From the IMG/VR virus record IMGVR_UViG_3300015360_000165, positions 1-27,162 of that record: DNA of 27,162 nucleotides. One strand, written 5' to 3'. Position numbers and translations under genes: made by a program. The notes below the pieces were generated by a model. That model made no database searches, was not told the DNA's origin, and saw nothing but the letters and a program-made list of their open reading frames with translations. This DNA comes from a virus. Of this stretch, positions 881-25,025 are shown piece by piece (the stretch's first letter is position 1; each line of letters opens with the position of its first letter).

Positions 881-1618
881 ATGAATAAAAAATATACAGA
901 GCAAGAACTGAACGCTCTAGTCTCGGAAATCGAGACACAGTTTAGTTCTCATCTCGCTAAGGCTGAAGACACCGCAACCACTACTGAGCTTGAAAAAGCT
1001 GAGAAGATCGCTAAATGCGGCGAAATGGCCAAGGACGAAGAAGAGTCTAAGGAAGAAAAGAAAGACGAAGACAAGAAAGAAGACGAAAAGGACGAAGAGA
1101 AACAAGAGGACCCTAAGAAAGAAGACGAAAAGCCTGCTTTCATGGAGAAATCTGACTACTCTGAAGACGACAAGTCTGAGCTTAAAGAGCTTTATACTGG
1201 AATGTCTAAGTCAGAACGCGAAACACACTACGAGGCAATCAAAACGGTAATGGCCTCTGACGTTGCAGCTGAACCAGCTAAAACAGAAGAGAAACCAGTC
1301 GAGATGAAGAAGTCTGAGCAAAACAACGAAATCGAAGCTTTAAAAAAGAGCAACGAAGAGTTGAAAGCCAGCATGGAAACTCTAGTAGCTGCTATGAAGT
1401 CAAAAGTTAAGACTGCGCCGAAAGGCAAAGCCGTAACTGGTCTATCTGCTCTAGATAAGAGCGAAAAGCCGGCTGCACCAGCAATGTCTCGTGAAGAAGC
1501 AAAAAAGGTCTTGAGCAAGAAAGCAGCAGGTCCGTTAGAGAAATCTGAACGTGAACTGATTAATGCATTTTGCTATGGACAGGTTGGATTAGAAAAAGTC
1601 CAGCATTTACTAAACTAA
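881..1618 (+). CDS. putative prohead scaffold/core protein
   Basis: A 245-residue, very hydrophilic protein directly before the major capsid gene, the usual place of the scaffold or core protein that templates capsid assembly. Residues 50-85 are almost all K, D and E, and the rest is predicted helical and coiled-coil (for example 148-175). No enzyme motif is visible, so it does not look like a protease fusion. It carries about eight copies of [L/M]xK[S/A]-acid: LAKAE (25-29), LEKAE (37-41), MEKSD (88-92), MSKSE (108-112), MKKSE (142-146), LKKSN (154-158), LDKSE (191-195) and LEKSE (219-223). Core proteins of T4-like phages are degraded at many short sites ending in Glu, so the motif may be a protease site. 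The C-terminus (AFCYGQVGLEKVQHLLN) is the only clearly amphipathic, non-acidic part and could contact the shell. Confidence 0.65.
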   Translation: MNKKYTEQELNALVSEIETQFSSHLAKAEDTATTTELEKAEKIAKCGEMAKDEEESKEEKKDEDKKEDEKDEEKQEDPKKEDEKPAFMEKSDYSEDDKSELKELYTGMSKSERETHYEAIKTVMASDVAAEPAKTEEKPVEMKKSEQNNEIEALKKSNEELKASMETLVAAMKSKVKTAPKGKAVTGLSALDKSEKPAAPAMSREEAKKVLSKKAAGPLEKSERELINAFCYGQVGLEKVQHLLN

Positions 1619-1682: not shown

Positions 1683-3068
1683 ATGAACTTCGTAGAAGAG
1701 ATCAAATCTCTCGTAAAGGCTTTGGAAGCTGGTAATTATAACCAAGCTCCTGGCACTTTGAACCAAGGCGCTTCCCTTCAAGTGGAAGATCTTTCTCCAG
1801 TTATGCACAACGTAACTTGGGAAGACAAACATATCAAATTGCAAAAAATGCTTTCTAGCAAAGAAGCAAAAGGCACTTTGATCCAATTCAACCGTCAATT
1901 AGACTACGGTACCTTCGGTGGTAGCGCTCAGTATGAAGGCGGCATTGGAGAAGAAGACACTTCAAGCTTCGTGCGTGAAGTTGTTCCAATGGCATACTAC
2001 AGCACAGTAAGACGTGTATCTGTAGCTGCTAACATGATCAGTGCATTCGACGGCCAAAAAGCTGAAGACCGTGCTTCTGATGACGGCGCTAAGAAAATCG
2101 CCGGCGACGTTGAATTCGACTTGTTCCGTGGTCAATCTGACTACTCAAATGGCGGAGTGTTTGACGGTAACCCGTTAGCAGCTGCTCGTTTACCGAACAT
2201 GCGCGGAGTTGATGCTCAAATTCGTGAATCTGACGCTCAATCAAACTCTCAAGACTTGATGTTTGCTGAGTACGGCAGTGACCAAACTGTTATTATCTCT
2301 GTAGACGGATCTCTTTCTCAGTCTCACATCGAAGACGCAGCGGTTCGTTCAGCAATGAATCACGGATCTGCTGACAAATTGATGCTTGACCCTGTTTCTT
2401 TGTCTGCGTACAACAAAATTGCGCACGCAAAAGAGCGTATCATGCTTGCTGGCAGCCCACAAGGCGCTTCAGGAGCTGATCTTCGCAAACAGTGGACATC
2501 GTCTGCTTTAGTAGACCTTGAGCCTTCTCGTTTCTTGTCTGGTAAAACTAAGCCTGCACGTGCTCGCCAAGGTTCTCCAAATGCTCCAGCTTTATCTGCT
2601 GCTGCTTCTGGATCTTCTGCGATCATCCCTGCTGGAACTTACGCTTACTACGCAACAGCGGTTAGCGAACGTGGCGAATCTCTTCCTTCAGCAGCGGTAT
2701 CTCAAGCAGTTACTTCTGGTCAAGAAGTTGATTTGACTATCGGCGCGGTTTCTGGAGCTAAGTACTTCAACGTATACCGTTCTGAAGCTGGCGGCAACGC
2801 TGCTTCTGCAAAATTCATCGGTAAAGTTAAAGCTGCTTCGACTTCGAACACTTTGTTCACTGATCTTGGCAATCGTTCACCGGGTGCGGTTACTGGCTTC
2901 TTGCTTCAGTCTGACACTATGGCTATTCACCAGTTAGCTGCATTCAGCAAACTGAAAATGGCTGTTTCTGACCTTAGCTTGCCTGAAGCTTCTTTCCGCT
3001 TCTTGTGTGTGGCAGTTTACCAACCAAGGAAAAACGTCCTCCTCGAAAATATAGACGGCCAACTGTAA
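1683..3068 (+). CDS. major capsid protein
   Basis: A 461-residue protein with a strong ribosome site (AAGGAG, 6 nt before ATG), in the standard place after a scaffold-like gene. The N-terminal part (LDYGTFGGSAQYEGGIGEED, then VREVVPMAYYSTVRRVSVAA) and the central acidic/glycine region match the general pattern of the HK97-fold coat proteins of large myoviruses. Residues about 299-401 look like an inserted Ig/fibronectin-type domain: PAGTYAYYATAVSERGE, then VDLTIGAVSGAKYFNVYRSE. Such insertions are common in coat proteins and protrude from the capsid surface. No copy of the LxKSE-type motif is present, and an N-terminal processing site cannot be assigned, although LVKALE at 10-15 is a possible T4-type LxE-like site. 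The gene ends before a strong terminator, consistent with very high expression. Confidence 0.85.
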   Translation: MNFVEEIKSLVKALEAGNYNQAPGTLNQGASLQVEDLSPVMHNVTWEDKHIKLQKMLSSKEAKGTLIQFNRQLDYGTFGGSAQYEGGIGEEDTSSFVREVVPMAYYSTVRRVSVAANMISAFDGQKAEDRASDDGAKKIAGDVEFDLFRGQSDYSNGGVFDGNPLAAARLPNMRGVDAQIRESDAQSNSQDLMFAEYGSDQTVIISVDGSLSQSHIEDAAVRSAMNHGSADKLMLDPVSLSAYNKIAHAKERIMLAGSPQGASGADLRKQWTSSALVDLEPSRFLSGKTKPARARQGSPNAPALSAAASGSSAIIPAGTYAYYATAVSERGESLPSAAVSQAVTSGQEVDLTIGAVSGAKYFNVYRSEAGGNAASAKFIGKVKAASTSNTLFTDLGNRSPGAVTGFLLQSDTMAIHQLAAFSKLKMAVSDLSLPEASFRFLCVAVYQPRKNVLLENIDGQL

Positions 3069-3123: not shown

Positions 3124-3170
3124 ATTGCAATTTGCAGAAACCAAGGGATACTAACCTTAAAGTAGGTTTT

Positions 3171-4730
3171 ATGCCAAAATACAATTCTAAGAATCTCTGT
3201 GAACAGCTAGAACAAATCAAAGCTATGAACGCTGAGGGTTCTAAAGTTTCAGAAATTGCAATAATTCTAGGATGTGCCCCAGCCTCCATAAGAAAAATGC
3301 TTAAAAAGCATTCGATAAACATCGCCCCTGTTCCGCCTAAACTCAAAGATGCAGAATGCCAAGTTTGTAGAAAAATTTTTATATACAAGTATAGTGGAAG
3401 AAACAAAGTATGCTCTGAAGTGTGTAGAAGACAAGCCATAAGCTTAGGCAAGACAAAGTATACAAAAGCAGACAAAGAGCTAGTTATGGCACTTCGAACT
3501 CAGGGCTTAAAGATCAAAGAAATAGAAAAGCAAACTGGTATAAACATCAATACTGTCAAAAAGATCAATAGCATTAATGGCCTTCTTTCTGTAGAAGAAC
3601 GCCAACATCGATGTAAAGTTGGGCGCCTTGCAAGTAACCCAGAGGCTTATGCTGACATGCGAAATGCTTATTTAAAGAAAGCTACAAGTTCAGAGTCCTT
3701 AGAAGCAGTAAAAGCAGAACTGTTACTATTGGGTTGGGAGTATGTTTCAGGTTTTACCAAGAAAACTAGCTCTTTTCTGATCCGATGTCAGAGTTGCAAT
3801 AATAAAAGAGAAACCAGTAAGCTTTGGACTGTTCAAAAAGGTGCCTGTGCTAGCTGTTCTAATACAGGTGTTTCTAAACCAGAGAAAGAAATTGCAGACT
3901 GGATTGCTGGATTAGGGTTGATAGCTGAGCGTTACAAGTTTGAAACCATAACCAATGGAAGAGAAATAGATGTGTATGTGCCAGAAAAGGGCATAGGTAT
4001 AGAGTACTGCGGCTTATACTGGCATAACGAGAATAGTCCCTGGCCAAGAGATTATTCCAGTCATTTAAAAAAATTAAAAAAAGCACAAAGTGTCGGAATC
4101 CGACTAATAACTATATTTGAAGATGAATGGCTAAAACGCGGCCCTCAAGTTCGTGGTTTTTTAGCAGCTGCTTTAGGCAAGACAGATAAAGTCCTTGGAG
4201 CCCGCTCTTGCTTAGTAAAGTCTGTGGAAAAATCCATAGCTAAAAATTTTTTAGAGAAAAATCACATACAAGGAGCAGTTAATACTGAAGCATATTTTGG
4301 ACTTTATAACAAAAATGAGTTGGTTGGCATAGTTTCTGGTGGAAAACATCATAGAGGAAATCCTGGCCTAGTTTTGAATAGACTGGCTTTTGCAAGTGGT
4401 CTTCGAATTGCTGGAGGGGCTTCTCGTTTAGTTTCTGCTTTATCTTCCTGGGGCAAACTGCAAGGTTTAACCAAACTCATTACTTGGAGCGACAATCGTT
4501 GGAGTGCTGGCAAAGTTTATGCTGCCTGCGGATTCGAGAAAAAAGCAGAGCTTCCACCAGATTATTCCTATGTCTACAAAGGCTTAAGACTACCAAAACA
4601 AAGCTGCACTAAAAAAGTTTTACTAAGCAGAGGGGCGGTCGGAAACACAGAATCAGAAATGGCTAAAAGTTTAGGGTATTCTCGAATATGGGATTGTGGT
4701 AAAATTCGTTGGGAAATAGAAATTCCATGA
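3171..4730 (+). CDS. Vsr-like (EDxHD type) homing endonuclease 1
   Basis: Taken from the ATG at 3171 (519 residues); an in-frame ATG at 3132 lies within a few bases of the terminator and is less likely. In order: a helix-turn-helix near residues 10-47, a CxxC...CxxxC zinc-finger-like module (Cys63/66 and 81/85), a second helix-turn-helix near 98-135, and a CxxC...CxxC module (206/209 and 226/229). Then comes the nuclease core at about 237-320 with GREIDVYVP (Asp267), IEYCGLYWH (Glu278, His285) and TIFEDEW. This is the pattern of Vsr-related phage endonucleases such as I-Bth0305I and F-CphI. The C-terminal half (ESLEKNHIQ-like start near 360, RLAFASGLRIAGGASRL, ITWSDNRWSAGKVYAACGFE) resembles a GNAT fold often found in this family. 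It is AT-rich (30% G+C in one line), has no good ribosome site, and lies between the capsid terminator and a small gene. It is free-standing, not in a recognisable intron. Confidence 0.85.
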   Translation: MPKYNSKNLCEQLEQIKAMNAEGSKVSEIAIILGCAPASIRKMLKKHSINIAPVPPKLKDAECQVCRKIFIYKYSGRNKVCSEVCRRQAISLGKTKYTKADKELVMALRTQGLKIKEIEKQTGININTVKKINSINGLLSVEERQHRCKVGRLASNPEAYADMRNAYLKKATSSESLEAVKAELLLLGWEYVSGFTKKTSSFLIRCQSCNNKRETSKLWTVQKGACASCSNTGVSKPEKEIADWIAGLGLIAERYKFETITNGREIDVYVPEKGIGIEYCGLYWHNENSPWPRDYSSHLKKLKKAQSVGIRLITIFEDEWLKRGPQVRGFLAAALGKTDKVLGARSCLVKSVEKSIAKNFLEKNHIQGAVNTEAYFGLYNKNELVGIVSGGKHHRGNPGLVLNRLAFASGLRIAGGASRLVSALSSWGKLQGLTKLITWSDNRWSAGKVYAACGFEKKAELPPDYSYVYKGLRLPKQSCTKKVLLSRGAVGNTESEMAKSLGYSRIWDCGKIRWEIEIP

Positions 4731-8925: not shown

Positions 8926-9768
8926 ATGTCTAATATTCCACCAGATGACAGCCAGGGCTCTCCCAAGTACATGCGGACCAAGGTTTTTCCTGTTCACGCT
9001 ACAAAATCTGGCTTAAACCAGCGAACAGAGAAGCCTCTTACAGCCTCTAAGTTCAAAGACCGCTATCTTTTAGGTATACCTAAAGCAATGCCTAACGGAG
9101 ACAAGCTTACAGATTCTATTCTAAACGACAAAATCATGCTCGCTATGAACGAGGTAGAGCTTTTGATCGGCATGCCGGTAGAGCCTCTTGAGTACGAGGA
9201 CAGTCTTCCTTTTGATCTTAACCTTTACAAAAATTTTGTCCATTGCAAAACCTTGCAAGGACCCATTCAGTCTGTGCAGCAACTCTGTATTCGTTCTTCG
9301 GACGGAGTCAATTTGTTTAACATCCCACCTGAATGGATAGATCCGGGCCAGTTTGACAAGCGTCAAGTGAACGTAATTCCTTATCTTTCTTCTGCCGGTG
9401 TACTTGTATCCAACTCTGCGGGTGGTGCTGGTACATTCTTCTTAGCCACAATAGGCAGCTATCGCTGGTTGCCTTCCTACTGGACGATTAAGTACACTGC
9501 TGGTCTAGGCTGCGCTAACGGCGAGCTTCCTGTACCAGTAAACGATCTGATTGGCACAGTAGCTGCCATCAACATTTTAAGTCTTCTAGGACCAACAAAT
9601 CAAGTCACTAGTCAATCTCTAAGCCAGGACAACATTTCTCAATCATCTAACTCTGCTGGCGTAAACCGCTATCAGCTGAGAATTGATGAACTAAAAGAAC
9701 ATAGAGATGAGTTAGTGAAGAAAATTAAGGGCATTTTTTCGCGTAAATACTACGCAGGAAGCCTCTAA
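8926..9768 (+). CDS. putative head-tail adaptor (connector) protein
   Basis: A 280-residue protein with a ribosome site AAGGAG before the ATG. It contains the layout seen in a widespread phage family next to portal/neck genes: LTDSILNDKIMLAMNEVELLIGMPV in the N-terminal helical part, NIPPEWI and VIPY in the beta-rich centre, W-x-x-YTAG (WTIKYTAGLG), then DLIGTVAAINILSLLGPTN, a SQSLSQDNISQS loop, and a C-terminal helix. Such proteins bind below the portal to complete the DNA-filled head. The identification is from pattern memory and position, so moderate. Confidence 0.55.
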   Translation: MSNIPPDDSQGSPKYMRTKVFPVHATKSGLNQRTEKPLTASKFKDRYLLGIPKAMPNGDKLTDSILNDKIMLAMNEVELLIGMPVEPLEYEDSLPFDLNLYKNFVHCKTLQGPIQSVQQLCIRSSDGVNLFNIPPEWIDPGQFDKRQVNVIPYLSSAGVLVSNSAGGAGTFFLATIGSYRWLPSYWTIKYTAGLGCANGELPVPVNDLIGTVAAINILSLLGPTNQVTSQSLSQDNISQSSNSAGVNRYQLRIDELKEHRDELVKKIKGIFSRKYYAGSL

Positions 9769-9772
9769 GCTT

Positions 9773-12631
9773 ATGAAGAAAGAATGGTTTTTAAAGAAAT
9801 TTGAAGCCAAAGAAACGGAGCTGAAAAAGTCTCCGGCGCCATTCATTCCAAACGAAGAAGGCGCCTTTGCTAAAGGCAAAGTCAAGGCTATTGTCAATTA
9901 TGATGCGCATCCAGAAAGTACAAAGAAAACTAAAACAGTAATGCTTCCAAACGGTCTTCGTTACGAGCGTCATGAACGCAAAGCCTCTGCAAAAATGCCA
10001 GGCGGTACTTTTCATTTACTATTTCATCCAAAGCATCAAGATCCAGTAGCTGCTATTGAAACTTACCACAATCATAACGACTACAACACAAAGTACCAGC
10101 AAGCAGCCGGAGTTGATAGCGTCCATGGAGACCACACAGTCCGAACCTCAAAAGTAGATGAAGAGCACAAAGGAAAAGGATACGGAAAGCAGCTTTATTC
10201 TGCAATTTTAGCTCATCACGTTCCTCAAGGAAACAAACTTTGGAGCGATGGTCAAGTTTCACCAAAGGCCCATGCTGCCTGGAAGTCCTTTAGAGGCAAA
10301 CCAGGAGTCAGCGGTTACATTGGACGCTATCCAAAAAACCCTAATCGCAGCGATGTTCAAGAAGGTTCGTACAATCACGACGAGCTCAAAGAACACCCGC
10401 ACTTTTTAATAAACGACAATCAGGAAGAAATAGCTTCTAGTCCCGAACACTTTCCTGCAGTAAAAGGTCTCCATTTTAGCGATCCTTACGCCGATAAGCA
10501 GGGTGGTAGATTAGCCAAGGCGGACGAAACGCAAGCACCAAAGCACAACGACACAATCAGACAGGTTGCACAATCCTACGCAGACAAAAAGGGCTTTAAG
10601 CTCGATCATGCAGCAACCAAGCTTAAAATAGATCCAAACCATTCGACAAAGCTGGCGCAGGCCTACGAAGGGATGAAGCACGACCCAGCTCACCCTCAAG
10701 TCAGAAGAGCTTACGATGCGTTGATAAACGAAACCAGCGATCAGTTTCACCATATTAAATCAACCGGCTTGAAGTTCTCTAAAATCAAACCCGACATGCA
10801 GAATCCTTACAAAAACTCAAAAGACCTACATGAAGATCTTAAGAACAATAATCACATGTGGTACTACCCAACAGAGCAAGGCTTTGGATCAGGTGACCCA
10901 GGTAAAGATCATCCTTTAATGCGTCAAACGGATCACAAAGACAATGAAGGGCAATTTATGCCCGCCAATGACGTTTTTCGTATAGTCCACGACTACTTTG
11001 GCCATGGTAAAGAAGGCTTTGGCTTTGGTGCAGCAGGTGAAGAAAATGCTTGGGCTCATCATAGCAAAATGTTCAGTCCCGACGCTCAAAAAGCTTTAAC
11101 TAGTGAAACACGCGGTCAAAACTCATGGGTTAACTTTGGTCCTCATGGAAAAGCCAATCAAGCCAATCCATCTAAAACGGTCTATGCTCAGCAAAAAGCT
11201 GGCTTACTGCCCGATTGGGCTTTAAATCACGAACAAAAGGATCTTTTAGGCAAGAGCGAAATCACTTTGAGTAAAGGTGAAAAAGGCGACTGGAAGAAGG
11301 AAGGGTATACTCATAAAGTACATCCACCAAAAGTTGAAATGTTTAACGGCAAGCATGACATTACTGAACACAAAATTACTGCTCACAACAAAGATGGTCA
11401 TAGAGTTGGTAGTTATCACTTTTCAGAATGGCCTGAAGCAAGCGAGCACAAAGGCTTGCTTCATACTACTTTCAGTGGAACAGACCCAGATCATCAAAGA
11501 AAAGGGCTTGCAACAGAAGCTTACAAACTTATTGAACACCATACTGGGAAAAAAGTTCACTCTGCTAATGGCAATCGTTCAGAAGATGCTAAAAAATTCT
11601 GGTCTCAGAAAAATAAACCTTTTGGAAAATCAGAAGAATTAGAAAAAGCTGTAAACAGTCCATCCAAGCATATAGGACTGGCCCGTCTTAAACAAATCAA
11701 GCAGGATCATAATCAAGGTGCTGGCGGTCAAGAATACGACGAGCAAGAACTTCACAATGCAATAAATGAGCGTTCTAACGCTCACGCAGAAAAGATGGTT
11801 CGCGATGCTAAAAGAAATGAGCACAAGCATCCAAACGAAGGCAAGGCCGACTACTCTTGGATGTTCAAGCAAAAGATGGCCAAAGGCGAACCTTTAGGTT
11901 TGTCTAAGTCTAACTACAAAGGCGGAGGTATAAGTCAATACAACGCCGCAGACAACGCTAGAAGGAAACAGACTCAAAACACTAGCAGTCAAACCGAAAC
12001 TGGTATTCAAGGAATTAAGGTCAAAGTAGGAGCTAACGTAGGTGGCGAGCAAGGTAAAGACAAATTGAACCGTGAAGCCAAAGAGTTGGCTGCCAAAAAC
12101 AGAAAACAGCCAGTAAACAAGCCACAGTTGTCAGACACAGAAAAAGCTAAAATTAACGCAGAGATGACGCTAAGGGCGCTAAAACAGAACCCTAAGAATA
12201 AGCTTGCAGCGTCTGAACAAATGTACCTTTCAAAGATGAGCAAGAGCGAACCTCTAGGTCTCTCTAAAGGTGAAAAAGGCGACTGGCAAAAAGAAGGGTA
12301 TAAGCTTTCTTACCATCCACATCAAAACGACGAAAGTTACTTTAAGATCCATGCCCACGACAAAACTGGAAAGCATGTTGGCACCGCCGAATTTACCCAC
12401 CATGATGACGGCAAACATATTCGCTCTTACGACGACGGCCAAAAATACGAAGATGCCAATGTCAGCGTCAACGTTCATCATGAACACAGACGCAAGGGTC
12501 TAGCAACAGCTATGTACCAGCATGCAGAAAAATCTACTGGAAAAAAGCTTAAAAATGTCGGCAAGAACAAAAGAACTTCTGACGGTCAAGCCCTCTGGGC
12601 TCAAAAAAATAAACCTTTTGGCACAAAATGA
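9773..12631 (+). CDS. 952-residue multidomain protein with three GNAT domains, possible polyprotein
   Basis: The longest gene here. Domains in order: about 36-190, a GNAT-type acetyltransferase (acetyl-CoA loop HKGKGYGKQLY, 132-142); about 256-485, a domain with HMWYYPTEQGFGSGD (361-375), HDYFGH (406-411), GEENAWAHH (422-430) and SETRGQNSWVNF (444-455); about 500-615, a second GNAT (HQRKGLATEAY, 574-584); about 625-820, a low-complexity helical linker; about 832-952, a third GNAT (HRRKGLATAMY, 905-915). GNAT enzymes move acetyl from acetyl-CoA to an amine. Between domains lie LAKAD (247-251), LGKSE (492-496), LSKGE (499-503), FGKSE (617-621), LSKSN (710-714), MSKSE (822-826) and LSKGE (830-834), the motif also found in the scaffold-like protein. 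This suggests cleavage into separate enzymes in the head. The middle domain is of a type I associate with large phage polyvalent proteins. It starts 4 nt after the adaptor gene with a weak ribosome site. Confidence 0.8.
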   Translation: MKKEWFLKKFEAKETELKKSPAPFIPNEEGAFAKGKVKAIVNYDAHPESTKKTKTVMLPNGLRYERHERKASAKMPGGTFHLLFHPKHQDPVAAIETYHNHNDYNTKYQQAAGVDSVHGDHTVRTSKVDEEHKGKGYGKQLYSAILAHHVPQGNKLWSDGQVSPKAHAAWKSFRGKPGVSGYIGRYPKNPNRSDVQEGSYNHDELKEHPHFLINDNQEEIASSPEHFPAVKGLHFSDPYADKQGGRLAKADETQAPKHNDTIRQVAQSYADKKGFKLDHAATKLKIDPNHSTKLAQAYEGMKHDPAHPQVRRAYDALINETSDQFHHIKSTGLKFSKIKPDMQNPYKNSKDLHEDLKNNNHMWYYPTEQGFGSGDPGKDHPLMRQTDHKDNEGQFMPANDVFRIVHDYFGHGKEGFGFGAAGEENAWAHHSKMFSPDAQKALTSETRGQNSWVNFGPHGKANQANPSKTVYAQQKAGLLPDWALNHEQKDLLGKSEITLSKGEKGDWKKEGYTHKVHPPKVEMFNGKHDITEHKITAHNKDGHRVGSYHFSEWPEASEHKGLLHTTFSGTDPDHQRKGLATEAYKLIEHHTGKKVHSANGNRSEDAKKFWSQKNKPFGKSEELEKAVNSPSKHIGLARLKQIKQDHNQGAGGQEYDEQELHNAINERSNAHAEKMVRDAKRNEHKHPNEGKADYSWMFKQKMAKGEPLGLSKSNYKGGGISQYNAADNARRKQTQNTSSQTETGIQGIKVKVGANVGGEQGKDKLNREAKELAAKNRKQPVNKPQLSDTEKAKINAEMTLRALKQNPKNKLAASEQMYLSKMSKSEPLGLSKGEKGDWQKEGYKLSYHPHQNDESYFKIHAHDKTGKHVGTAEFTHHDDGKHIRSYDDGQKYEDANVSVNVHHEHRRKGLATAMYQHAEKSTGKKLKNVGKNKRTSDGQALWAQKNKPFGTK

Positions 12632-12760: not shown

Positions 12761-13369
12761 ATGGAAACTACACAAACGCAAAACAATAATTTCAATAAGT
12801 TAGCTACGGTAGTAGTTCTAGCGGTCTTGGCCTTCGGGTCCACTTCAATTGCTTCTCAGTTTGAAGTTGTTATGCTTCGTACTATTTCTTCAGTAGAGTC
12901 TAACAATGGTCGCTACACGAATCACGAAACAATTGAGACTGGCTTGAATGCTGGTACTTCTGCTTACGGCCAGTACGGCTTAATGCCAATCACTATTCTT
13001 GAAGTGGGCGTTAAAACTCCTTCTATTTTAAAAGAGTACCCTGAATTGGCTTCGCTTGAATTGAGTGAGCTTCATGATTTTATGGACGCCAATCCTGAGT
13101 TAGAGCTTAAAATAGCTAGCTCCCTCCTTCGTCGTCTTCTTAAAATCTTTGGGCAGAATCCTCAAGCTATTGGCTATGCTTGGTTAAACGGCATTACTGG
13201 TACTAAGCGAGCCCTCGCTGCAGGAAAAGACCTGAGCACTCATTGGCACGTCAAGAAAATTATGGCCGCCCTAGACAAGCTAGGCGGGTGGAGCAAGCCA
13301 ACCAAGGACTTGTTTTGCTTGCAAAGCCTTATGCTGGCAGACAACCAACCTGGTGTCCCTTACCGTTAA
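12761..13369 (+). CDS. putative lytic transglycosylase with N-terminal membrane helix
   Basis: A 202-residue protein. Residues about 14-32 form a hydrophobic helix (LATVVVLAVLAFGS...), a membrane anchor or signal peptide. It is followed by a transglycosylase-like SLT pattern: ISSVESNNG with the candidate catalytic Glu46, then GTSAYGQYGLMP (65-76), the usual AxGxxQ-type helix and loop. A later helix pair (YAWLNGITGTKRALAAG) fits the fold's C-terminal part. Such enzymes cut the glycan strands of peptidoglycan; in virions they open the wall during DNA entry, and those with a signal help lysis. It is the only gene here with a convincing private promoter in front. The family call is from motifs only; no second catalytic residue is expected in SLT enzymes. 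Confidence 0.6.
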   Translation: METTQTQNNNFNKLATVVVLAVLAFGSTSIASQFEVVMLRTISSVESNNGRYTNHETIETGLNAGTSAYGQYGLMPITILEVGVKTPSILKEYPELASLELSELHDFMDANPELELKIASSLLRRLLKIFGQNPQAIGYAWLNGITGTKRALAAGKDLSTHWHVKKIMAALDKLGGWSKPTKDLFCLQSLMLADNQPGVPYR

Positions 13370-13401: not shown

Positions 13402-13417
13402 ACTTTTTGAGGTGCCC

Positions 13418-13987
13418 ATGCTTAGTCCCAATGAAATTGAAAAAATCGAAGAAATCGGTACGCTTGACGGTTCGCCCGTTAAGATGATCCTTACAAAGGG
13501 TGGATTTTTTGTAGCGGCCGGAAAACCGCGCGGCAAGAACACAGACGAAGCTTTGGCTGCAGGCTCTCATGGGGCAATCGTCCGCTTTAACGTAGAAAAG
13601 CAGTACGCTGGACGCTTCCAGCCAGCTCTCCGCAAGTCTGAGGGTGAAGCAGCTCCGGTTGTGCATGATCACACGCAGCTCCTTTCTAAAGAGAACTCTC
13701 TAAAAGGGTTCCGACTTTATACAGTAAATCACACAGACCGCGTTGAAGCGGTAATTACCAAGAACGGGAACCAAGTAATGATCCAAGAGGCACTGGCTAA
13801 GGGCGAAGAGCTCGAAATCCAGACAGACATCGGCATCACAGACGTCAAGAACGCAAAAGAGCTAAGCTCCGTAGCGATGAGTCTTGCTAGGGCCTTTGCT
13901 GAAGAAGCTACAGTATTAAAAAAAGAATACGTACAGGTTCAGACGCAAGCCAAAAGGATCAAGGCTTCCGATCTAAAGAAGGGATAA
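13418..13987 (+). CDS. unknown head-region protein with LRKSE motif
   Basis: 189 residues from the ATG at 13418, with GAGG 5 nt upstream; a GTG at 13412 overlaps that site and is rejected. The family is not recognised. Two small beta-rich parts (IGTLDGSPVKMILTKGGFFVAAGK and KGFRLYTVNHTDRVEAVITKNGNQVMI) are joined by a linker with LRKSE (71-75) and LLSKEN (88-93), followed by LAKGE further on and a helical C-terminus. The two parts may be related repeats, since both have a basic pattern of a strand, a turn with NG/GG and a strand. It sits between the transglycosylase-like gene and a neck-type gene, 3 nt from the latter. A virion role is likely from position. Confidence 0.7.
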   Translation: MLSPNEIEKIEEIGTLDGSPVKMILTKGGFFVAAGKPRGKNTDEALAAGSHGAIVRFNVEKQYAGRFQPALRKSEGEAAPVVHDHTQLLSKENSLKGFRLYTVNHTDRVEAVITKNGNQVMIQEALAKGEELEIQTDIGITDVKNAKELSSVAMSLARAFAEEATVLKKEYVQVQTQAKRIKASDLKKG

Positions 13988-15389: not shown

Positions 15390-16343
15390 ATGAAAAAACA
15401 GGGTGAATTAGCAGCAACAATTTTAGGCGCTGACTTCGTGGAGAAACTCCAGAAGAACAGTGACGTGACGTTGCTTAAACCCGCTTCAGGTCTCCATATA
15501 GACGCCAACGAGATTGCGATTGCTTTAAACGTTGTACCTCGTTCAGTCCTAGGCTTCCTGGCAGCCAATATGCGTTCCATGCGCATCGGTGACAGCAAGA
15601 CAATCAAGTTAGAACCTTTAATTGGCATCAACGCTGCTGGTCATTTAAGTGGATCGGGTGCGCCAAGCGAGCACGTTCTTAGACTTACAAAATTAGATAA
15701 TGACATGTACAATGGCGAAATCGAAGGATCTGGCAAGATCTTAACCACTTTCAGGGGAAAGCCTCTTCCAGGAGTCGGTTTAGTTGTCATGAGCACTTAT
15801 GAGATGTATGACGGCCACGCAGCAGAACCAGCCAAGCAAATAGCAGAGCAGCCTCCAAAAGAAGCAGCAGCAGTACAGCACATGATTAATCAAGAAATGG
15901 TTATAAAAGCCGGTATTATTTCCGAGCTAACTCTCCAAGAGATTCTTAAGTTGAGAATCCAGACCGAGATGGCTCTTAGCTCTTTACGAGCGGAGATAGT
16001 AAGCATGGCTGCACATAGATTAGAAATTTCACAAGCACCAACTGAAACAACTGAAACAGAATCAAAACTTAAACGCTTCCTAGAGAATCGCGAGATCAAA
16101 AAAAAAGAAGCTAACACCTTCAACATCATCCTAGCCAAGGGTGACTCGGCAACGTGCCCAGACTGCCGCCAAAACGTCCTACAAGATGGAACCTTCAACG
16201 GATGCGTATGCTTCGGAGAAGATAGAAACCGAAAGATCTTCCTCAAGAAGACAGAATCGGGAGTGCAGATCAAGTTCGCCAAGGGCTGGGACCCGGAGAA
16301 CATGGAAATGCTTCTCGAAATTCTCAAAAGGAGAGGTAAATGA
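15390..16343 (+). CDS. virion-region protein with C-terminal zinc ribbon
   Basis: A 317-residue protein starting two bases after the previous stop. Residues about 1-140 form an alpha/beta region with a conserved-looking core (LGFLAANMRSMRIGDSKTIKL, ETEM). Residues 165-245 are helical. The C-terminus carries CPDC (256-259) and GCVC (271-274), a zinc-ribbon knuckle pair, preceded by LAKGD and followed by FGEDRNRKIFLKKTESGVQI and WDPENMEMLLEIL. A ribbon of this type next to late genes suggests binding to nucleic acid or another protein, such as a late transcription or assembly factor; the sequence does not tell which. It overlaps the next gene as ATGA. Confidence 0.65.
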   Translation: MKKQGELAATILGADFVEKLQKNSDVTLLKPASGLHIDANEIAIALNVVPRSVLGFLAANMRSMRIGDSKTIKLEPLIGINAAGHLSGSGAPSEHVLRLTKLDNDMYNGEIEGSGKILTTFRGKPLPGVGLVVMSTYEMYDGHAAEPAKQIAEQPPKEAAAVQHMINQEMVIKAGIISELTLQEILKLRIQTEMALSSLRAEIVSMAAHRLEISQAPTETTETESKLKRFLENREIKKKEANTFNIILAKGDSATCPDCRQNVLQDGTFNGCVCFGEDRNRKIFLKKTESGVQIKFAKGWDPENMEMLLEILKRRGK

Positions 16344-18226
16344 GCAATTTAAAAGCCTTAGTAGAAAAACTTAAAGCAGTGGCGGCGGAGGCCGAAGCAG
16401 CATTAAACCAAGAAGCAGGACAAGGACAAGCACAACCAGCAGCACCTTTAAAGAAAAAAAGCCCTCTCAGTAAGCCTGATTCTGCTCCTTTAAAAAAGGA
16501 CGTAGGTCAAAGCACAGACGCAACAATGAAGGAAGGCCTGAATGAAGACTGCAGTGCCAAACCGGAACTTAAAGGGCAAACAGCCCCTGCCGCTCAGACA
16601 GACATGGCAGACCAAGCAGCAGACCAAGCTCCTGAAGAAAAGGATGCCCAAGCCATGGACGCAAGTCCTGAAGCAAACAGTCCTCCTGAAGAGCAAAAAT
16701 TACCCCCTGACGCTGACGAGATCCCTAGCGATGAAATCAACCGTGACTCTCCAATAGGAGAGGATATGGACCAAGTACCTGGCACTGACGAAATGCCTTC
16801 TGTTGAAGAAGAAAACGGTGCTTCTCAAGCAGAAGATACTCCAGAGATGCAGCAAGAAAACGAAGGTGAAGCAGCTCCTCAAGAAGGAATGTGCTACCTT
16901 GCAGGCGACGGCGACAACATTGGAGCAAAGGTTGGTCAAGCCGTACTTAGCGACGACGTTGAATCTTTGCATTCAACAAGCCAAGCAATTAACGCTGGTC
17001 AAAATCTAGTAATGGATTGGTGCGAACAGAACGGTGGACGAGTTATCAGTGCTGGCGGCGACGAATTCGTTCTTGAAATGCCTAGCTGCGACCCTCAAGC
17101 ACTAGAAGATCTACGATCACAATATGCTCAAGCTGTAGGTGCTACATGCACAATTGGTGTAGGTACCTCTATGTCACAAGCAGGCAAGGCGCTAATTGCC
17201 GGCAAGCTAAACGGCAAAGACCAAATTTGCAATTATGACGAATCAATCGAGCAACAACTTCAGTCTGCACACGAAGGTGCTCAGGCTGCTGGCGGCGAAG
17301 CTCAAAAACAAGACGACCACTATTTATCATCTATGTACCAAGATAAGAATCAAGCCCCTAACGAGCAAGAGCAAGCAGACGAGCCTGAACAGATGATCGA
17401 CGCAGTAGCTCCTCCGGGAGAAGAAGCAGCTGATCAGAACCAAGAGCAGCAAGCAATGCTTGACGCAGTAGCTCAAGGTGGACAACAGGAAGGCTCCGAG
17501 GCCTCTCAAGATCCGGCGTTGAACGAAGCCGAAGAAGCTCCTGCTTCAGCCAATCAAGATCCCTTCCATGACGACTCAGACCCACGCAACCAGGACGAAG
17601 GTCAGCAAGACCCGTCAATGTCCGATGTGATGAACGACCAAGTTGATCGTGGCAACGGTGAAAACATCAAAGCCAAACTGGCCGAGATCCTTCAAGCTTT
17701 TCGAGCAGACCAGTCTTTTGTAGAAAACACACGCGAGGCCAACCCAGAACTTTACCGAGAAAGCATGGTCCTCCTTCAACAAATGATCAAGGTTGCCCGC
17801 ATGGTAGGCCCTTCAGCAGCTCCAGCAGACGCAGCCCCTCAGCAGGACCCAGCAGCTGCCCCTCAACCAGGCAGCGAGCCTCAAGCAGAAGAAAAAGCCC
17901 CTTTTCCTCCAAAAAAGGATGCTTCTAACAAAGATGGAGCACCTGCGGCTGAAAAAGAAACCAAAGACAAAGATCCAAAAAAGCCTTTTTCTAGCGCCGA
18001 CAAAAAGGACGAAAAGAAAGACTCTGAAAAGATGGAAAAGGCTGTTCAACAGCCTGGCGGCAAACCTGGAGAATCAAACATTGGCTCTATGGTTCGCACA
18101 GCTAAATTTAACAAAGAGTCTGGCTACCCAAAAGATGCCAAAAATACTCTAGAGCAAGCCAAGCAAGAACAGAAAAACGAACTCTACAGAACCAAGACTC
18201 AGCCTAAGCCAAACCTCCCTAAGTAA
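16340..18226 (+). CDS. acidic virion-region protein with GGDEF/mCpol-like cyclase domain
   Basis: A 628-residue protein. Residues 1-182 are disordered and acidic (Q, A, E, P-rich), 183-305 is a folded domain, 306-440 is disordered again, 441-490 is helical, and the tail is K/P-rich. The folded domain has the nucleotide-cyclase palm layout: LAGDGDNIG (Asp190/Asp192), a helix, then RVISAGGDEFVLEMP with an intact GGDEF (239-243), and later CTIGVGTSMSQAGKALIAGKLNGKD. DGD-x-IG plus GGDE resembles the minimal CRISPR-polymerase (mCpol) group and diguanylate cyclases, which make cyclic nucleotides. All expected metal ligands are present. It sits between structural genes and overlaps its neighbour as ATGA. 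A structural role with a vestigial enzyme is possible. Confidence 0.7.
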   Translation: MSNLKALVEKLKAVAAEAEAALNQEAGQGQAQPAAPLKKKSPLSKPDSAPLKKDVGQSTDATMKEGLNEDCSAKPELKGQTAPAAQTDMADQAADQAPEEKDAQAMDASPEANSPPEEQKLPPDADEIPSDEINRDSPIGEDMDQVPGTDEMPSVEEENGASQAEDTPEMQQENEGEAAPQEGMCYLAGDGDNIGAKVGQAVLSDDVESLHSTSQAINAGQNLVMDWCEQNGGRVISAGGDEFVLEMPSCDPQALEDLRSQYAQAVGATCTIGVGTSMSQAGKALIAGKLNGKDQICNYDESIEQQLQSAHEGAQAAGGEAQKQDDHYLSSMYQDKNQAPNEQEQADEPEQMIDAVAPPGEEAADQNQEQQAMLDAVAQGGQQEGSEASQDPALNEAEEAPASANQDPFHDDSDPRNQDEGQQDPSMSDVMNDQVDRGNGENIKAKLAEILQAFRADQSFVENTREANPELYRESMVLLQQMIKVARMVGPSAAPADAAPQQDPAAAPQPGSEPQAEEKAPFPPKKDASNKDGAPAAEKETKDKDPKKPFSSADKKDEKKDSEKMEKAVQQPGGKPGESNIGSMVRTAKFNKESGYPKDAKNTLEQAKQEQKNELYRTKTQPKPNLPK

Positions 18227-20033: not shown

Positions 20034-20107
20034 TTCAATTAATCTTATGTATTCAAATGAAAACTCCTGGCGCAAGGAATCTTTGTAAGCGTAGAGAGGT
20101 AGTGTAA
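20030..20107 (+). CDS. possible 25-residue gene linking two coupled genes
   Basis: ATG at 20030 overlaps the previous stop (ATGA), with GAGGG 7 nt upstream; its TAA overlaps the next ATG (TAATG). It encodes MIQLILCIQMKTPGARNLCK... ending in RREVV, with two cysteines and a basic tail. Double coupling and a good ribosome site are unusual for a chance ORF of this length. It may be a real small protein or only a translational bridge. Confidence 0.4.
   Translation: MIQLILCIQMKTPGARNLCKRREVV
20041..20047 (+). promoter_or_regulatory. recurrent AATCTTA element before gene 20107
   Basis: It lies within the 25-codon ORF, 66 nt before the start at 20107. A second AATCTTT-like copy follows at 20078-20084. 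Confidence 0.2.
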
Positions 20108-20748
20108 TGAAAGAAATAAGCTTTACAGCTCATCATCCCGATCACGGGCACATGACGGTAAAAGGGCACATAGATCCAATTCACGGCTTTCAGGCTCATG
20201 ATCAATCTTACAGCCTACATGGCGACAGTGCTGTATCCGTTGGACCAGATGACGCTCATGGTGACCATGAAGGCGGCATTAACAGCCACATGCAAAAACA
20301 AATAAAAGCTCACGCCGAGTCTTTGGGTGCAGGCAATCATGAGAAAAAACCAGCATTAAAACTTGGCAATCCTTTAGGCAAGTCAGAGTACAGCCCGATT
20401 GAAGCAGCTATTGAAATTCTTAAAAAGAGTGCTGAAGTCCTTGAAAAAGCGGAACATCCAGTAATTGCTAAGTATAATGCCGCTCGTCAATCAGAGGAAG
20501 AAGCAAAGCTACAGACTCCTGAAGGCGAAGCCAAGCGTAAAGCAGGCAACAAAGCTAATGCCAAGAAACTTAAAGAAATGGGCAAAGCTGAGCTTGAAGA
20601 CTCAAACGACGGCAAAGTTGAAGAGATCAAGACTAAAAAAGCCGACGACAAAGAAGAAGAGAATGACACTGAGAACGCAGACGGTACCAAGAAAATGGAC
20701 AAGTCTGAATCAAAGCTTAAAAAATTCATCGCGTCAAGGAAGAAGTAA
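20107..20748 (+). CDS. His-rich, highly charged head-associated protein with KSE motifs
   Basis: 213 residues. The N-terminal 80 are rich in His and Asp (AHHPDHGHMTVKGH, AHGDHEGGINSH), a possible metal-binding, beta-type region. The rest is a charged helical stretch, basic and acidic in alternation, ending in a Lys-rich tail. It contains LGKSE (90-94), LKKSA (105-109), LEKAE (112-116), MGKAE (158-162) and MDKSE (197-201). This resembles the scaffold-like protein at 881 and the linkers of the 952-residue protein. If the motif is a prohead cleavage site, this would be an internal head protein. GAGAGG lies before the ATG. No enzyme motif is seen. Confidence 0.65.
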   Translation: MKEISFTAHHPDHGHMTVKGHIDPIHGFQAHDQSYSLHGDSAVSVGPDDAHGDHEGGINSHMQKQIKAHAESLGAGNHEKKPALKLGNPLGKSEYSPIEAAIEILKKSAEVLEKAEHPVIAKYNAARQSEEEAKLQTPEGEAKRKAGNKANAKKLKEMGKAELEDSNDGKVEEIKTKKADDKEEENDTENADGTKKMDKSESKLKKFIASRKK

Positions 20749-23750: not shown

Positions 23751-23783
23751 TTGATCTTCATCTTCTTCGATAATCTAGTAAGT

Positions 23784-25025
23784 ATGAAGAAGTTAACCTT
23801 AGAAGAAATACAACACCAGACTTTCTTAGAAGGTCATCAACTCCTCTCTCAAGAATACAAAAACAATAAATCCAAGCTGGCGTTTACCTGCCCTGCTGGC
23901 CACCTCTACACCGCTGCTTGGTGCGATTTTCAAGCAAAAAAGCGCTGTAGGTTATGCGGCATCAAGAAAGCCCACAAGGGTTGTAAAAAGTCTCCTGAAA
24001 AAATTTCCGAGCTGCTAGAAAAGCGCGAATATACTCGCACTGCTCAAGAAGAATACATAAACAACAGAACAAAAATAAAATTGCGCTGCTCTAAAGGGCA
24101 TGCGTTTGCCTCCGACTGGTTACACCTTCAAGCAGGGCATGGTTGTCCTTCTTGCTTTTCTTTGATTAGCAAACAGCATAAAGAAATTGCTGAATACGTC
24201 AGAAGCCTAGGAGTAGGTTGCGAGGACAATGTTCGAAACGTAATAGACGGCGAACTAGATGTCTATATTCCAACAAAGCGTTTGGCTATTGAATTAGACG
24301 GGCTTTATTGGCACTCAGAAAACAGAAAGCCTGACATTAAAAGTCGAAATCGAGCAAAGTTAGTCAGTTGTCGAAAGCACAAGGTAAGCCTCCTTGTTGT
24401 GTACGAAGACGAATGGAAATCCCTTGCAAAAAGAAAAATAGTCCAGGCTATGATTCGCTCCCGTATAGGAGTTTTTGATCGAAAGCTGCGAGCTTCGAGT
24501 CTCGACCTGAGAACTGTTGCAGTTAAAGACCGGCGAAACTTCTTTGAGGCTTCTCATATAGATGGAGATGTTCCTTCTAAAAGCGCTTTTGGCTTGTTTT
24601 TTGAAAATAAATTAGTTTGTTGCTTAAGCTTAAGGTGGAATACTAAATATGGATGCTTGGAAATTGCGCGCTTTGCCACCCTTCCAGGAACAACGGTTCA
24701 CGGAGGCCTTGGACGTCTGTTAAAAAAAGTTGAAGGACGCCTGATTACTTATTCCAACAATAGAGTAGGAGACGGCAAAGCCTACGCTGCATGCGGGTTT
24801 GCGCTGGCAGACAAAGAAGAGCATCAAAGCTATTGGTATACAGATTTCAAAGAGAGAGTTTGGCGTTTTCGGTGCAGAAGAGTATCTGAACCAAGCGTTC
24901 TTTTACTTTACCCTTCAGAGAGCGAACAGGCCTTAAATGGGGTTTTTTCGTATCTTTTCAAATCCAAACGAAGAGACGTCTTTAAAATCTGGGACTATGG
25001 GCATCGCCTATGGGTCAAAAACTAG
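23784..25025 (+). CDS. Vsr-like (EDxHD type) homing endonuclease 2
   Basis: 413 residues from the ATG at 23784; an earlier in-frame ATG falls within the hairpin region. Two CxxGH...CxxC zinc modules in tandem (Cys36/His40/Cys55/Cys58 and Cys102/His106/Cys121/Cys124) take the place of the helix-turn-helix parts in the first endonuclease. The nuclease core at about 128-215 has ELDVYIP (Asp159), AIELDGLYWHSE (Glu170, His177) and VVYEDEW. The C-terminal half (FFEASHIDGDV, RFATLPGTTVHGGLGRLL, ITYSNNRVGDGKAYAACGF) matches that of the first enzyme, so the two share nuclease and GNAT-like parts but differ in DNA-recognition modules. It has no strong ribosome site. It sits between the tail tube and the next tail gene. 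Confidence 0.85.
   Translation: MKKLTLEEIQHQTFLEGHQLLSQEYKNNKSKLAFTCPAGHLYTAAWCDFQAKKRCRLCGIKKAHKGCKKSPEKISELLEKREYTRTAQEEYINNRTKIKLRCSKGHAFASDWLHLQAGHGCPSCFSLISKQHKEIAEYVRSLGVGCEDNVRNVIDGELDVYIPTKRLAIELDGLYWHSENRKPDIKSRNRAKLVSCRKHKVSLLVVYEDEWKSLAKRKIVQAMIRSRIGVFDRKLRASSLDLRTVAVKDRRNFFEASHIDGDVPSKSAFGLFFENKLVCCLSLRWNTKYGCLEIARFATLPGTTVHGGLGRLLKKVEGRLITYSNNRVGDGKAYAACGFALADKEEHQSYWYTDFKERVWRFRCRRVSEPSVLLLYPSESEQALNGVFSYLFKSKRRDVFKIWDYGHRLWVKN

Follow-up and report, generated by a model that had tools for sequence, protein, structure and literature searches.

A predicted polyprotein in the head module of a myovirus carries candidate head-maturation cleavage sites between its acetyltransferase and other domains

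The window analysed, comprising the 27,162 nucleotides (positions 1 to 27,162) of the IMG/VR virus record IMGVR_UViG_3300015360_000165, represents the head-to-tail module of a myovirus. Genes for a scaffold-like protein, the major capsid protein and a phrog_772 protein are followed by an open reading frame (ORF) of 952 codons, further head proteins and the tail sheath, placing the 952-aa ORF between the capsid and tail sheath genes, among the late structural genes. The capsid protein shares 53 % amino acid identity with that of Myxococcus phage Mx1 (169.6 kb), in which the gene order is similar and a 1479-aa ORF annotated as a NUDIX hydrolase occupies the place of the 952-aa ORF. A search of IMG/VR with the 952-aa protein (P0001) alone returned no match, while module and capsid-protein queries did recover relatives, and P0001 seems to be without a close full-length relative in this database. 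Two further ORFs (3132-4730 and 23751-25025), inserted beside the capsid and tail genes, resemble homing endonucleases on visual inspection of their sequences. The main features of the window are as follows, with an arrow marking the bond predicted to be cut.

881..1618, + strand: scaffold-like ORF adjoining the capsid gene; 7 sites in 245 aa (P=2e-7)
1683..3068, + strand: major capsid protein (phrog_752); N-terminal LVK↓ALEAG, the predicted maturation cut
8926-9768: phrog_772 gene, just before the 952-aa ORF
9773..12631, + strand: polyprotein ORF (P0001), 952 aa, stop included; syntenic with the Mx1 1479-aa ORF
13412..13987, + strand: head-module ORF; 2 sites (LRKSE, LAKGE)
20107..20748, + strand: head-module ORF, a probable further substrate; 4 sites in 213 aa

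An earlier sequence-only reading of this DNA had described the 952-codon ORF at 9773-12631 as three GNAT enzymes and a fourth domain, and both the ORF and its composition were confirmed. Pfam family PF00583 matched three stretches above the cutoff (E=6.6e-16, 59 bits), R/QxxGxG/A-type GNAT loops occur as HKGKGYGKQ, HQRKGLATE and HRRKGLATA, and the fourth domain matched phrog_3170 (E=1.2e-13). The domains and cassettes distinguished within the protein are listed below.

9947..10387, + strand: GNAT-A, aa 59-205; Pfam FR47/Acetyltransf_CG and phrog_1249 around aa 123-155; homologs in relatives L100 and L101
10595..11227, + strand: fourth domain (phrog_3170, "LPD"), about aa 275-485 (widest 252-492); helical, conserved HDxxxH
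11276..11629, + strand: GNAT-B cassette, aa 502-619 (Pfam, cassette alignment, AlphaFold2 model)
11630..11884, + strand: 85-aa cassette, aa 620-704, rich in predicted helix-forming charged residues
11909..12244, + strand: basic, probably disordered cassette, aa 713-824; homologous to the L104 C-terminus between LDK↓SN and VKK↓SE
12200..12217, + strand: KLAASE, a second recurrent linker motif, aa 810-815
12269..12628, + strand: GNAT-C cassette, aa 833-952; C-terminal NKPFGTK aligns with NKPFGK↓ of GNAT-B

A homolog of the 85-aa cassette is found in L100, with VKK↓SE and FKK↓SE on its flanks. Structure models were generated without the full-length alignment, which placed GNAT fragments wrongly onto the fourth domain. 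The GNAT-B model (AlphaFold2; pLDDT 73) has an ordered core and ends below 50, and its best Foldseek matches are GNATs (prob ~1, but E>0.001). The fourth domain yielded a confident helical model (pLDDT 92), for which a fold search against the PDB gave no significant match. It also matches a protein annotated as "large polyvalent protein" and BFVD models named polyvalent/ART-PolyVal. Its invariant HDxxxH and a later invariant Glu recall the metal site of aromatic amino acid hydroxylases, to which weak fold matches of non-significant similarity were found, and this likeness is only a lead.

Between these units recurs the motif [LMIVF]xK[SAG][ED], with seven copies observed in the 952-aa protein against 0.58 expected, while the maximum in 20,000 shuffles of the protein was five copies and related control motifs lay near chance. 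The seven motifs noted earlier all occur at the residues given for them, although one, LSKSN (aa 710-714), lacks the acidic residue, and a further copy, MAKGE (aa 702-706), had been overlooked. That none lies in a GNAT core was borne out, as no site falls inside any domain core of the protein, and AlphaFold2 places the sites in low-confidence ends of the fourth domain and GNAT-B. Three pairs of sites are only 7-8 residues apart (492/499, 702/710 and 822/830). Together with a weak N-terminal candidate, nine LxK↓[SAG] sites can be listed.

9821..9835, + strand: possible N-terminal site LKK↓SP, aa 17-21, weak
10511..10525, + strand: predicted cut site LAK↓AD, aa 247-251
11246..11260, + strand: predicted cut site LGK↓SE, aa 492-496; in register in L095 and L097
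11267..11281, + strand: predicted cut site LSK↓GE, aa 499-503; K and G invariant in ten aligned GNAT cassettes
11621..11635, + strand: predicted cut site FGK↓SE, aa 617-621; recurs at the ends of L215 and L216 GNAT cassettes
11876..11890, + strand: predicted cut site MAK↓GE, aa 702-706
11900..11914, + strand: predicted cut site LSK↓SN, aa 710-714; aligned with LDK↓SN of L104
12236..12250, + strand: predicted cut site MSK↓SE, aa 822-826
12260..12274, + strand: predicted cut site LSK↓GE, aa 830-834

Cutting at all nine would release short spacers along with five or six pieces of domain size, where up to five pieces had been proposed. An N-terminal site is present in 7/19 polyproteins, compared with ~12% of other proteins, and no N-terminal targeting sequence common to all was found among the 19. 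The linker motif K[LMI]AASE is enriched in the ORF set of the clade (25 observed; 0.44 expected), being followed by LxK[SAGTN] within 24 residues in 19/33 cases, with the Lys most often at +8.

The motif [LMIVF]xK[SAG][ED] is not peculiar to the 952-aa ORF and recurs across the whole head module, both in this phage and in its relatives. In the three relative genomes compared (Mx1, G005 and G012; 150-170 kb), head modules whose limits were set by eye after the capsid and tail gene positions were seen contain 18, 24 and 26 copies, respectively, against 4.4, 6.1 and 4.5 expected. Outside these modules the counts are those of chance (13, 17 and 22; 14.5, 22.2 and 20.1 expected), and six control motifs (e.g. 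reversed, Lys replaced by Arg, polar for hydrophobic) show no comparable pattern. The head proteins bearing sites include scaffold, protease, portal (two in Mx1) and polyprotein. The highest loads occur in the G012 scaffold (11 in 304 aa; P=1e-13) and the G005 protease precursor and, within the window, in the scaffold-like ORF and the 952-aa ORF, with motif density peaking in the scaffold-like ORF beside the capsid gene. The scaffold sites conform to the logo [LMI]xK[SA]E.

The capsid protein (phrog_752) and the protease of the relatives (phrog_1028, the family holding the phage K and CampHawk proteases) belong to SPO1/Herelleviridae-type families. The annotated mature capsid protein of Listeria phage A511 starts after ALK (ALK↓SFTTG), while the solved chain of the phage 812 capsid comprises 439/463 residues, a register that fits a cut after Lys24 (VVK↓SFQTG; sequence from phage K). 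All 26 capsid proteins listed in the present clade carry L[MLV]K↓ALEAG (26/26), and an LxK↓S/A site as in the SPO1-type capsid precursor is present in the 952-aa protein. SPO1-type scaffolds contain [LVI]xK↓S (11 in CampHawk, 7 in phage K), mostly without an acidic P2' residue, which was counted against the interpretation favoured below. Because the homologous capsid precursors are cut after Lys (xxK↓S), the cut is predicted at LxK↓[SAG], with the acid at P2' and not at P1. The end of GNAT-C at NKPFGTK, where GNAT-B has NKPFGK↓SE, fits a cut after Lys. The T4-like cut after Glu proposed in the sequence-only reading does not agree with these families; processing of the T4 internal protein/Alt type, at [LI]xE by a gp21-type protease, was rejected on the homology of the capsid and of the relatives' protease. 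As for the protease and consensus that the same reading had left to be searched for, a phrog_1028 protease was found in relatives and the consensus is predicted to be LxK↓[SAG]; no protease gene is visible within the 27-kb window, the phage's own lying outside it.

Many protease ORFs of the relatives (e.g. L217 and L064:13002-16721) repeat internally the peptide that stands at the N-terminus of the capsid protein (LxK↓[AS][LM]xAGS..AAP..L..GAAL..E). The prohead-protease precursors of relatives also hold cargo-like domains, such as GNAT and DUF6321, with the Mx1 precursor reaching 1239 aa.

Parts of the 952-aa protein were found in 18/49 related records, in ORFs of ~240-1950 aa and in differing orders. 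Around 30 module homologs, 36 sites occur in the 1,538 residues of 30-residue flanks against four in 5,036 core residues, all four at core edges; sites are thus ~30-fold denser in the flanks, from which control motifs are nearly absent. Several alignments have a site in each of the two proteins at their start or end (499/L102 446; 830/L103 325; 710/L104 121; 492/L095 1515 and L097 598), and the ten aligned GNAT cassettes with an invariant K↓G at their N-terminal site derive from several phages. A boundary test over all ORFs gave a modest 1.85-fold excess (115 vs 62), the ends of alignments being both noisy and interdependent, and was not relied on. The larger, reshuffled versions in relatives include ART, NUDIX, kinase, VTC, ParB-like and lysozyme-like modules. 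For example, a single 1640-aa frame of L215 encodes several GNATs of the present family with such K↓G starts, together with ART-like, ParB-like, lysozyme-like and NUDIX parts, L216 adds a VTC domain, and in L103/L217 a GNAT cassette lies within a protease precursor. ORF 12761-13369 of the window, lysozyme/transglycosylase-like by eye and without a Pfam match, is free-standing here, while its homologs in several polyproteins (L100, L089 and Mx1) form the fused C-terminal module.

The phrog_3170 domain, with 571 relatives among the matching viral-contig stretches, served as a natural control. Of the newly found phages whose capsid protein is of the present type, 7/8 have a site beside this domain, while none lies there in 9/10 contigs of 40 kb or longer that lack this capsid type, the exception (L152) lying at a contig end. 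Elsewhere the domain is part of proteins as long as 3,161 aa and has no such flanks. Within 30 residues on either side of the fourth domain, the L089, L090 and L091 homologs have no site, which was also counted against the favoured interpretation.

On this sequence evidence, the ORF at 9773-12631 probably encodes a polyvalent effector polyprotein, from which the head-maturation protease would release individual enzymes for ejection with the DNA. The polyprotein would be made late and enter the prohead together with the scaffold, where the SPO1-type prohead protease would cut it at LxK↓[SAG], as well as trimming the capsid protein and shredding the scaffold. The short spacers and scaffold peptides would then exit the head, while GNAT-A, the phrog_3170 domain, GNAT-B, the charged 85-aa piece, the basic piece and GNAT-C would be retained and later ejected with the DNA. 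T4-like heads provide the basis for expecting domain-sized products to stay while small peptides leave. Once ejected, the acetyltransferases may act on host proteins early in infection. As the modules end at cut sites, they could be gained, lost or reordered without harm to the products. The balance of the evidence leans modestly towards a more general arrangement in this clade of large myoviruses, in which the capsid-maturation site would serve as a universal cassette delimiter, with LxK↓[SAG]-bounded effector modules moving among polyprotein genes and at times into the precursor of the prohead protease. The modules would be packaged joined in a single chain and would part from one another only within the head as it matures.

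Other explanations of the motif can be envisaged. It could be a tag for docking or prohead targeting, acting through binding to capsid or scaffold, with the polyprotein packaged and ejected whole, as the vRNAP of phage N4 is packaged unprocessed (PMC5512222). Restriction to head proteins would be expected of such a tag as well, but a tag would not be needed at both edges of each module, and the matching sequence lies exactly at the cut point of homologous capsid proteins; with the last GNAT stopping directly after NKPFGTK where its sister continues as NKPFGK↓SE, we regard a tag as unlikely. The motif could also be solely a common flexible linker in which no protease is involved, since K, S and E favour disorder and the sites are located in unstructured ends. 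However, the flanks are not enriched in control motifs, K[SAG][EDN] without the hydrophobic P3 residue is rare there (6 vs 36 full sites), and the same domain is without the motif in phages lacking this capsid type, making a linker function highly improbable.

The fate of the products may also be read differently. Since the densest sites are those of the scaffold, cutting might merely dismantle an expendable internal core protein, no enzyme being active in the host. The predicted products, however, have lengths of 85-250 aa, folded enzymes whose GNAT motifs are intact are among them, the sites lie between and not through these, and catalytic modules recur (ART, NUDIX, VTC and GNAT), so that there is little likelihood of a purely expendable role. 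The location of the gene within the late structural module would also suit a protein that is not injected but acts late in the infected cell, with assembly proteins or the dying host as examples of its targets. Against this, prohead-protease sites are most readily understood in proteins that enter the prohead, and injection has precedents in the polyvalent proteins and Alt (PMC5512222, PMC5694885); late action is accordingly considered improbable, if slightly less so than mere dismantling.

The polyprotein interpretation combines elements that are already known. Polyvalent proteins carry many effector domains per chain (GNAT, ART, kinase, ParB and peptidase), and some are phage-encoded and likely packaged; Iyer et al. 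(2017) drew a parallel with viral polyproteins and suggested that peptidase domains embedded in the chain bring about release (PMC5512222). The 952-aa ORF similarly joins unrelated effector-type domains (three GNATs and phrog_3170), and domains are shared with named polyvalent proteins (phrog_3170 here, PF18760 ART-PolyVal in the syntenic ORF of Mx1). It differs in that release is predicted to occur in trans, by the head-maturation protease, through a uniform site common to scaffold and capsid and present at most module edges. T4 Alt and SPN3US gp53/gp54, which are ejected or belong to the inner head, are processed by the prohead protease, Alt at both ends (PMC5694885, PMC10052503), and lose propeptides at xxE↓ sites; the available portions of these sources do not describe the separation of several enzymes from one chain. 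The SPO1/Herelleviridae phages (A511, 812/K and CampHawk) share the phrog_752 capsid, the phrog_1028 protease and [LVI]xK↓S sites in scaffold, capsid and protease, but their protease ORFs, as examined in the head cluster, are of ~255 aa and without cargo modules. The syntenic 1479-aa ORF of Mx1 has GNAT, ART-PolyVal, NUDIX and other modules separated by MKK↓AE, LKK↓SE and LEK↓SE, a module set that differs from that of the 952-aa ORF and of which the annotation names the NUDIX domain only. No earlier description of prohead-protease cleavage of a polyvalent protein was found in the open-access papers searched, which is not proof of absence; what seems to be new is the combination of polyvalent chain and prohead-protease trimming, with one uniform site common to scaffold and capsid at most module edges.

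This offers a testable mechanism for loading and separating multi-enzyme phage effectors, whereby one chain would enter and the maturation protease would free its parts. The site can furthermore be used as a search key, flagging head-associated proteins and their module boundaries in these genomes, and the likely injected set (acetyltransferases, ADP-ribosyltransferases, NUDIX, kinases and lysozyme-like enzymes) may thereby be read from sequence.

Elsewhere in the window, the head-module ORF 16340-18226 includes an mCpol/mini-Cas10 cyclase domain (aa 186-298; PF18182, E=1.8e-16) with GDGDN and GGDEF motifs, which is conserved at the N-terminus of homologous ORFs in ~25 relatives. The host mCpol is the Panoptes defence enzyme (PMC12657230), and the copy in the phage structural module could be a packaged counter-defence.
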